A stretch of DNA of 36,540 nt from positions 1-36,540 of the forward strand of contig JAAZXC010000013.1 of NCBI GenBank assembly GCA_014240365.1. Reading direction: 5' to 3'. The stretch's first letter is position 1. Every line of letters begins with the position of its first letter. A model generated the notes under the pieces. That model searched no databases, was not told where the DNA came from, and saw only the letters and a program-made list of their open reading frames with translations. This document shows positions 2,046 through 6,863 of this stretch, one piece after another. The position numbers and the translations under genes were made by a program. The DNA comes from Acidimicrobiales bacterium. GTDB taxonomy: Bacteria > Actinomycetota > Acidimicrobiia > Acidimicrobiales > MedAcidi-G1.

Positions 2046-3059
2046 ATGGCGGACAGCGGGAGCCTCACCTTTGATCGACCCGACTGGCATGCCCAGGTCG
2101 ATGAAGAGGTCGTGGATCCAGATCTGGAGATCATCGACCCCCATCATCATCTCTGGCAGATTCCGGGCGCCGACTACCTGCTAGAGAACCTGTGGGCCGA
2201 CACCGGATCGGGTCACAGGGTCGTCAAGACCGTCTTCGTGGAATGCCACGCCTCCTACCGGGATTACGGGCCTGACCACCTCCGACCGGTCGGCGAGACC
2301 GAGTTCGTGGCCGGTCTGGCCGCCGACAGCAACGAAGGGCCGGGCGCACGCATTGCCGGGATCGTGGCCTACGCCGATCTGAGGCTCGGCGACCGACTCC
2401 CCGAGGTGCTCGACGCCCATGTCGAGACCGGACGGGGACTTTTCCGCGGTATCCGCCACGCGCTTTCCCATGCCACCCACCCGGAGGTGCTGGCCTTCCC
2501 CGGTGGGGCTCCAGCCGGCCTCTCCTCCGACGAGGCATTCCGCGACGGGGTACGCATGTTGGGCCGGCTCGGCCACACATACGAGAGCTGGCACTACCAC
2601 GAACAGATGCCCGACTTCATCGATCTGGCCCGGTCTGCGCCGGACACCACGATCATCCTCGACCACTTCGGGACCCCGTTGGGTGTCGGTCCCTGGGCGA
2701 CGCAACGAGACGAGATATTCGAGCAGTGGAAGGTCGACATCGCCGAGGCCGCTCGCTGTCCGAACGTGGTGGCCAAGCTGGGTGGCCTGGCCATGCCCGA
2801 CAACGGCTACGGCTGGCACCTGGCCGACCGACCGCCCACCTCCGACGAGGTGGTGTCCGCCCACCGGGCCCACTACCTCCACACCATCGACCACTTCGGA
2901 CCAGAGCGGTGCATGTTCGAAAGCAACTTCCCGGTCGACCGGGTCTCGGTCTCGTACCGGGTGCTGTTCAACGCCTTCAAGAAGATGGTCGCCGACTTCT
3001 CGACCGACGATCGGGCCGCCATGTTCTCCGGCACCGCCGAGCGCGTCTACCGCCTCTGA
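2046..3059 (+). CDS. Amidohydrolase family (Amidohydro_2) metal-dependent hydrolase
   Basis: 337 residues, the usual length for the TIM-barrel Amidohydro_2 family (2-pyrone-4,6-dicarboxylate lactonase/ACMSD-related). The metal-binding signature IIDPHHHLW lies at residues 29-37. Further family hallmarks are FVECHASY, GIRHALSHA, IILDHFGTP (metal-binding His after the strand) and near the C-terminus MFESNFPVDR carrying the catalytic-type Asp. Members hydrolyse lactones or decarboxylate small carboxylic acids in the cytoplasm; the substrate here is unknown. The gene is preceded by a TAGGTT hexamer suggesting a leaderless transcript. The following gene also hydrolyses C-N bonds, but a functional link is not demonstrated. 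Confidence 0.85.
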   Translation: MADSGSLTFDRPDWHAQVDEEVVDPDLEIIDPHHHLWQIPGADYLLENLWADTGSGHRVVKTVFVECHASYRDYGPDHLRPVGETEFVAGLAADSNEGPGARIAGIVAYADLRLGDRLPEVLDAHVETGRGLFRGIRHALSHATHPEVLAFPGGAPAGLSSDEAFRDGVRMLGRLGHTYESWHYHEQMPDFIDLARSAPDTTIILDHFGTPLGVGPWATQRDEIFEQWKVDIAEAARCPNVVAKLGGLAMPDNGYGWHLADRPPTSDEVVSAHRAHYLHTIDHFGPERCMFESNFPVDRVSVSYRVLFNAFKKMVADFSTDDRAAMFSGTAERVYRL

Positions 3060-3107
3060 CCCGGACGTCGGGATTCGTCTGATCCAGGGCCTGTTGCGGC
3101 ACTCGGG

Positions 3108-5760: not shown

Positions 5761-6792
5761 ATGACCGTAGACACGACCACCATCCTCGCCGAGGACGTCA
5801 CGACCCCGGCCGTCACGTGGGACGGTGACCGGCCAATCGTCGACCCATCACACCTGGGGTCGATCCTGGGATGGGACCTGAAGCCCGAGGGGCTCTGTCG
5901 CAAGGACGTCTGCGTTCCCGTGCACGACCGGCCCGGCCTGAACCATGCGGACGGAGTCGACCTCTGCGCTGTGGCCGACGCCCTGGGACAACCAGTGCTC
6001 GTCGACGCCGACGCCCACCTCGTAGCCATCGGGGCGGCGACCGCCCACCGACAACAGGCCATGGTCGATCGCCTGGCACCGGACGCTTCGGTCCTGGACC
6101 TGCAGGGAAACAGGCGACTGCTCTCCGAGTGGTCGGGAACCAGACGCCTGCTCGTCGCCTTCTCCACGTGGTGAGGATGCGCATTTGACCTGCCCGGGTG
6201 GCAGGCACTTCATGACGAGTTGGCCGACGAGAACTTCACCGTCATCGCCGTGGCGCTGGACGAGAACCTGGCAGCCGTGGCGCCCTTCGCCGAGAACATC
6301 ACGTATCCGGTCCTCGTAGACACGGAACACCAGATGAGCGAGCTCTACGCCATCACCAACGTGCCCACCGTGGTCTGGATAGACGAGGACGACCGGATCG
6401 TCAGGCCCAATGCCATGGAGCCCGGTAGCGACATGTTCACAGAGTTCACCGGGATCAAGTGCGAGGGGCACATGGAGCAGGTCCGGACCTGGATCCGGAA
6501 CGGGGTCCTGCCTGATGACGCCGACCACGAGGTACAGGCGCTGGATCCAGACGAGGTCACAGCCCACCTCCACTTCCGACTTGCCACCCATGCCCGCCGG
6601 GGCGGCCTGGCCGACGCCGCCTAACGACACTTCGCAGCTGCCTCCGAGTTGGCCCCCAACGACTTCACAATCGTCCGCGGAGCCATGCCGCTCACCGGGG
6701 TCAACCCCTTCGGCGCAGCCTTCTTCGAGCTGTACGGGCGGTTCCAGGAGGCAGGGTCGCCGTACCACGGCATTCCCCGGGCGAGGACCTAG
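5761..6792 (+). CDS. Thioredoxin-fold (TlpA/redoxin-like) protein with in-frame TGA at the catalytic Cys and a TAA near the C-terminus
   Basis: One continuous frame encodes an actinobacterial-type redoxin protein of about 343 codons. It has an N-terminal domain with TTPAVTWDG and LCRKDVCVPV, a thioredoxin-like domain (LLVAFSTW, then GCAFDLPGWQALHDEL, YAITNVPTVVWIDEDDRIVRP), and a C-terminal helical part (HLHFRLATHARRGGLADAA, then RHFAAASELAPNDF). Codon 138 (6172-6174), where the W-C-G-C active-site motif should have its first cysteine, is TGA. Codon 288 (6622-6624) is TAA, yet conserved sequence continues to TAG at 6790-6792. The ATG at 5761 is preceded by GAGGTG at a good distance. Two readings exist: selenocysteine at 138 with a truncated tail, or a pseudogene/sequence error. 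Conventional gene callers would split it into two short ORFs. Confidence 0.7.
6189..6205 (+). promoter_or_regulatory. SECIS-like hairpin just downstream of the in-frame TGA
   Basis: CCTGCC pairs perfectly with GGCAGG around the five-base loop CGGGT. The loop starts 21 nt after the TGA at 6172-6174 and has a G as its second base, which fits the general description of bacterial SECIS elements. However, the stem is largely forced by the codons for the conserved Leu-Pro-x-Trp-Gln segment, so it may also be present in cysteine homologues. Confidence 0.3.
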
Positions 6793-6821: not shown

Positions 6822-6863
6822 ATGTCCCAGCACGACGGCCACCACGAGCACGAGCACGACTGA
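6822..6863 (+). CDS. Possible 13-residue His-rich micro-ORF
   Basis: The frame encodes MSQHDGHHEHEHD, with five His and five Asp/Glu residues. AGGAG at 6809-6813 lies 8 nt before the ATG, a good Shine-Dalgarno placement. It sits between the interrupted redoxin gene and the DUF6159-like gene. It could be a metal-binding peptide, a leader, or a chance reading frame; nothing in the sequence proves translation. Confidence 0.25.
   Translation: MSQHDGHHEHEHD

Follow-up and report, generated by a model that had tools for sequence, protein, structure and literature searches.

An in-frame TGA in a redoxin gene of an Acidimicrobiales bacterium is almost certainly a selenocysteine codon

The redoxin gene and its product

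We analysed a 36,540-nt stretch of DNA (the window) from the draft genome of an Acidimicrobiales bacterium (2.2 Mb, 192 contigs, 95% complete, 2.2% contamination). A frame at 5761-6792 ends at a TAG (6790-6792), an end backed by the alignment of relatives, and is interrupted by a TAA at 6622. The alignment of congeners to its product covers residues 2-343. The features of the locus are as follows:

5761-6792, + strand: predicted selenoprotein gene, encoding a redoxin of the ResA/TlpA fold whose motif is U-G-C (from the frame, domain search and homologues)
5896-5913, + strand: Cys46 (5896-5898) and Cys51 (5911-5913), the N-terminal domain pair, invariant (62/62)
6067-6399, + strand: AhpC-TSA/redoxin domain, residues 103-213 (PF00578, 43.2 bits, cut-off 26; Foldseek)
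6172-6174, + strand: predicted Sec codon 138, a TGA where the redox motif would have its first Cys (33 TGA and 4 Cys among 37 loci)
6178-6180, + strand: Cys140, second member of the U-G-C couple (62/62 aligned sequences)
6189-6205, + strand: predicted SECIS hairpin with stem arms 6189-6194 and 6200-6205 and the loop CGGGT at 6195-6199 (loop-closing pair 6195/6198)
6622-6624, + strand: TAA at codon 288, a private premature stop (or an assembly error); the codon is sense in each of the 36 other loci

The initial annotation had placed a TGA at codon 138 of this frame and had pointed to a further stop in it. The reading frame bears out both, the second stop being the TAA at codon 288. The context of codon 138 is ...LLVAFSTW-TGA-GCAFDLPGWQ....

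The best solved relative by sequence was ResA, with its CxxC aligned to the U-G-C, which has one residue fewer (4nmu). We modelled the protein of the intact congener L052 (mean pLDDT 79.4, pTM 0.82, from an alignment of just 8 sequences) and compared it with known structures by Foldseek; the top matches were ResA chains over the central domain, with a TM of ~0.75 by target length. Of the features that define ResA/TlpA proteins, the model has the thioredoxin fold with the conserved Pro, and U-G-C stands instead of the CxxC redox motif. Cys46, Cys51, Cys140 and Pro202 were invariant in all 62 aligned sequences, and residue 138 was U or C in every one. The product is thus predicted, from sequence and model, to be a ResA/TlpA-fold oxidoreductase. 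It resembles the solved ResA/TlpA proteins (PDB 4nmu, 1st9, 1jfu) in its thioredoxin fold, in the place of the redox motif and in the conserved Pro opposite; it differs from them in having UxC for CxxC, an extra N-terminal domain and a tail, and no signal peptide or membrane anchor evident by eye in its N-terminus. We also observed that the Cys-x4-Cys of the N-terminal domain sits within GWDLKPEGxC....CVP.

Redoxins of this kind are not new. In its available text, a 2008 Global Ocean Sampling study lists 'Prx-like (UGC-containing)' under pfam00578 (PMC2398784), and the later names found in the available parts of two papers are 'UGC-containing Prx-like' and 'UGC-containing TlpA disulfide reductase family protein' (PMC9312934, PMC13188914). 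These proteins, from marine and non-marine bacteria, are described there as pfam00578-type redoxins with Sec in UGC; the present product matches PF00578 at 43.2 bits (cut-off 26) and has UGC at codons 138-140. As the kind has been listed since 2008, we assign the product to it, although it carries an N-terminal CxxxxC domain and a helical tail that the available descriptions do not give. The nearest NCBI model was NCBIfam NF041054, WAxxUGC_long (ResA-like), which matched residues 27-312 with U-G-C at the same place. We rejected membership in it, since the score, 205.7 bits, lies below the cut-off of 300; the motif also reads A-F-S-T-W-U-G-C, not W-A-x-x-U-G-C. The intact congener L052 scored 210.6. 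Higher scores were obtained by four relatives belonging to other phyla (277-337) and by a paralogue type found in the same order (493). What NF041054 models is a sister group. In the literature searched, we found no selenoprotein or selenoproteome work on Acidimicrobiia and no paper for 'WAxxUGC', and the available text of the deep-Sep paper (PMC12013277) mentions neither the motif nor the lineage.

Selenocysteine machinery and the TGA in homologues

The initial annotation had tied a selenocysteine (Sec) reading to selA, selB, selC (tRNA-Sec) and selD, and a search of the genome found every one of them. In a profile search selB scored 267.8 bits (cut-off 242.25), and SelB proteins were the best matches of its product among solved structures. 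It is directly preceded by selA (383.7 bits), and the tRNA-Sec (67.5 bits, anticodon tca) lies on the same contig. The selD gene (359.6 bits) contains an in-frame TGA of its own, in GAG-U-GCKL. Judged by its gene content, the genome is predicted to decode selenocysteine.

The site of codon 138 was read in detail in 37 homologous loci (L022-L058, with the own locus among them). An alignment of homologues had been suggested initially as a check, and it showed a TGA at the same site in 33 of these loci, with Cys in the other 4. The W-C-G-C that had been ascribed to family members was indeed present in the nine Cys forms found. Within the order, 77 of 198 genomes had a homologue match (E <= 1e-20); by a tally of the search table, the TGA form was present in 68 of these and non-TGA forms only in 9. 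Nine of the 17 genomes of the genus (own included) had a match, and all nine had TGA.

We further examined the co-occurrence with selA. A selA match (E <= 0.001) was found in 66 of the 68 TGA genomes and in only 2 of the 9 non-TGA genomes (Fisher p 5e-7), counts that overstate independence because homologues share ancestry. In three of the 66 (G055, G070, G172), selA was present as fragments only, under the family cut-off. The two TGA genomes without a selA match are 78% and 83% complete. Among the 121 genomes of the order without a homologue match, selA was present in 51.

For the sequence sets, 20 of the order-wide matches without a locus were fetched. L059 and L060, which duplicate L053 and L052, were excluded from the counts of 53 TGA loci and 62 aligned sequences; L066, a tail fragment, was left out, L067 yielded no site, and the near-identical rows L024/L025 and L084/L085 were retained. 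A search across the phylum with a Cys-form query (E <= 1e-40) gave a match in 7 of 296 genomes, six of them within this order, and no further Cys form among them. Its seven loci were not added to the set, six being repeats and one new (G248, with TGA).

On a quick tree, in which 13 of 59 inner branches had less than 80% support, the Sec/Cys state changed at least four times. These changes largely match the presence or absence of selA, making the family useful for the study of Sec gain and loss.

The hairpin behind the TGA

A perfect 6-bp hairpin with the loop CGGGT had been reported initially at 6189-6205, at a SECIS-like distance from the TGA, and both statements held. The sequence is CCTGCC[CGGGT]GGCAGG (6-bp stem, 5-nt loop), the loop starts 20 nt past the TGA, and the fold energy of 6184-6213 is -11.2 kcal/mol. 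The limits for a bacterial SECIS, as given in the available text of PMC13188914, are a stem of 4-16 bp, a loop of 3-9 nt, a spacing of 16-37 nt, a G within the first two loop positions and an energy <= -7.5 kcal/mol, and the hairpin lies inside every one of these. Compared with the E. coli SECIS, for which one review, in its available part, gives the apical loop G23 and U24 and the bulged U17 as fixed sites (PMC8659212), the hairpin has nothing on its 5' arm that clearly corresponds to the bulged U17.

By itself the hairpin was unremarkable. Among 200 dinucleotide shuffles of 30 nt, 20 were equally good (z -1.5), and over longer stretches of 39 and 51 nt it was not above chance (z -0.10 and 0.16, respectively). 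At gathering scores, Rfam gave no match within the window. The significance of the hairpin comes from the homologues and not from the single sequence.

The initial annotation had cautioned that the hairpin is largely forced by the codons for Leu-Pro-x-Trp-Gln. We evaluated this with a null in which the amino acids were fixed and codons were drawn by each gene's own usage (200,000 draws). All five loop-adjacent stem pairs were formed in 52 of the 53 non-duplicate TGA loci (before removal of duplicates, the full stem was present in 54 of 55), as against 19.2 expected, and no draw gave more than 34 complete stems. The caution was thus right in part, as the amino acids alone give a full stem in about 36% of cases (19.2/53), but the number seen is far over the synonymous null. 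A hairpin that is a mere by-product of the amino acids is ruled out by this comparison. The Leu codon of the stem was CTG or TTG in 51 of the 53 TGA loci, compared with 46% in the rest of those genes; the two other Leu codons are a CTC in L079, which pairs with the opposite GAG, and that of L031, which does not pair. In L058 and L078, TTG stands opposite CAA.

A second signal was seen in the loop. In 52 of the 53 TGA loci, the third base of the Pro codon was the Watson-Crick partner of that of the Gly or Val codon after it (C-G 39, A-U 9, G-C 4), where 16.3 were expected, and none of 10,000 permutations reached this number. The dinucleotide enclosed by such a pair would be G-G or G-U; the second loop base was G in all 55 TGA loci, duplicates included. 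Independent pairs on the tree agreed in 5 of 5 cases for the C/G loop pair, and for the A/T loop pair there were four pairs, 3.8 agreeing on average and none opposed; with so few independent pairs, p 0.05 is out of reach. From these comparisons among homologues, we conclude that the hairpin is under selection at the RNA level, beyond what a protein by-product would explain. Such pairing of synonymous third bases is evidence, independent of the protein, for the SECIS, and it gives a model, open to test, of the apical-loop features that SelB requires.

The Cys forms were also examined. Only 2 of the 9 kept the full stem (1.6 expected), and 5 of the 9 had Gly-Ala where the TGA loci have Pro-Gly/Val. 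In the four that kept the Pro, the third bases still pair (three G-C, one G-U), so that the loop pair alone fails to separate the Sec from the Cys group. One possible reading, which we put forward tentatively and consider somewhat short of an even chance, is that it is the SECIS RNA and not protein function that keeps the conserved Leu-Pro-[Gly/Val]-Trp-Gln behind the active site. The loop would then need a Watson-Crick pair, closing G-[G/U], between the Pro codon and the Gly/Val codon at their third bases, and lineages that exchanged Sec for Cys would have been freed from the constraint, with Leu-Gly-Ala-Trp-Gln and broken stems as the outcome. The Leu-Gly-Ala form requires one change on the tree, and the release of the motif is thus a single event. 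If true, the family would be a natural experiment in which RNA structure dictates part of an enzyme sequence.

In L031, and in no other of the 53 TGA loci, a stem pair is broken together with the loop pair, although the genome has selA. The hairpin of L031 is possibly another SECIS form or a case of recent decay.

Reading of the TGA and of the second stop

The machinery of the genome, the TGA in homologues and the RNA-level selection on the hairpin support the Sec reading of codon 138 that was proposed initially, and the in-frame TGA at 6172-6174 is almost certainly a Sec codon in a redox enzyme. We hold with high confidence that it is decoded through the SECIS at 6189-6205, in a ResA/TlpA-fold oxidoreductase with the site Sec138-Gly-Cys140. 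The caveats are the broken hairpin of L031, the two TGA genomes without selA and the TAA, with which the own copy is not fully intact.

Computation backs the codon, the homology, the Sec machinery, the SECIS co-variation and the fold; for Sec insertion, the substrate and the electron path, we infer the following. SelB and tRNA-Sec would read the TGA at 6172-6174 as Sec, directed by the hairpin at 6189-6205. The active site Sec138-Gly-Cys140 would be of the CxxC type, one residue shorter and with Sec for the first Cys. The selenolate would attack a disulfide or peroxide substrate, Cys140 would resolve the intermediate as a selenenylsulfide, and Cys46/Cys51 of the N-terminal domain may relay electrons. 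In the own genome, translation would stop at the TAA, with the redoxin domain whole and the last 56 positions gone, unless the TAA is an assembly error.

The second stop either shortens the protein or is such an error. We lean slightly towards a real and recent truncation, in which the redoxin domain, ending ahead of the TAA, is kept and the conserved helical tail is lost. A real-looking deletion just downstream in the same genome also speaks for this. In the congener L052, a cation-efflux gene (PF01545, 130.2 bits) is whole at 2191-3081; in the window, the collinear matches that flank the lost gene meet at 6845. The His-rich ends suggest, at the level of sequence, a repeat-mediated in-frame deletion of this gene. 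Contig 187 carries the sole further PF01545 match of the genome. We also noted 13 codons at 6822-6863 (MSQHDGHHEHEHD) that are a remnant of the cation-efflux gene; this His-rich mini-ORF was considered as a possible small gene and rejected as its leftover.

Against a real truncation stand the draft state of the assembly, with its 192 contigs, and the conservation of the lost tail in relatives. Past the TAA, dN/dS was 0.105 and 0.167 against two congeners. In the L052 model, the first part of the 56 positions is helix predicted with confidence, and the final 30 or so residues have a pLDDT <= 54. With the TAA private to the own genome and the tail apparently still under constraint, the change is either recent or an error, and if real it must be very recent. 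Together, the TAA and the cation-efflux deletion may reflect relaxed selection on the locus in the own genome.

The same two observations, along with the presence of two in-frame stops, could be taken to mark a decaying pseudogene in which TGA and TAA are both inactivating, a reading that we regard as very improbable. The TAA is private to the own genome, but the TGA is common to 33 of the 37 loci and to all nine matching genomes of the genus. Neutral decay of the rest of the gene, named initially as an outcome that would speak against Sec, was not seen: over the whole frame, dN/dS was 0.14 and 0.13 against the same two congeners, and the SECIS is intact at the own locus. Of all these features, just the TAA and the deletion could point to a recent relaxation.

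An in-frame TGA in a conserved gene could also mean that this genome reads TGA as an ordinary amino acid, a reassignment that we rejected as having a negligible chance, since TGA is a working stop here (it terminates selA, selB and 12 of the 15 ORFs looked at in the window), terminates the same redoxin gene in 17 of the 37 loci, and has Cys as the sole alternative residue at the site.

With the TGA read as Sec, it should be kept in mind that the codon at 6172-6174 could pass for a gene break in automatic annotation.

Further frames of the genome were noted. A second SelB-like match (L002, contig 183, 42-905, minus strand) scored 202.3 bits, under the cut-off of 242.25, and may be another translation GTPase. 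The selD gene (L089, contig 139, 958-2025) has its TGA at the known Sec position, followed by an 8-bp hairpin stem. Contig 107 holds another thioredoxin-fold frame that contains a TGA in frame (L100, 5086-5469, minus strand); this frame is ResA-like, with a lipoprotein-like start and an SY-U-PTC motif followed by a hairpin, and by its sequence is probably another selenoprotein. By geometry alone, each of the three TGA sites (codon 138, selD and L100) is followed by a hairpin inside the SECIS limits.
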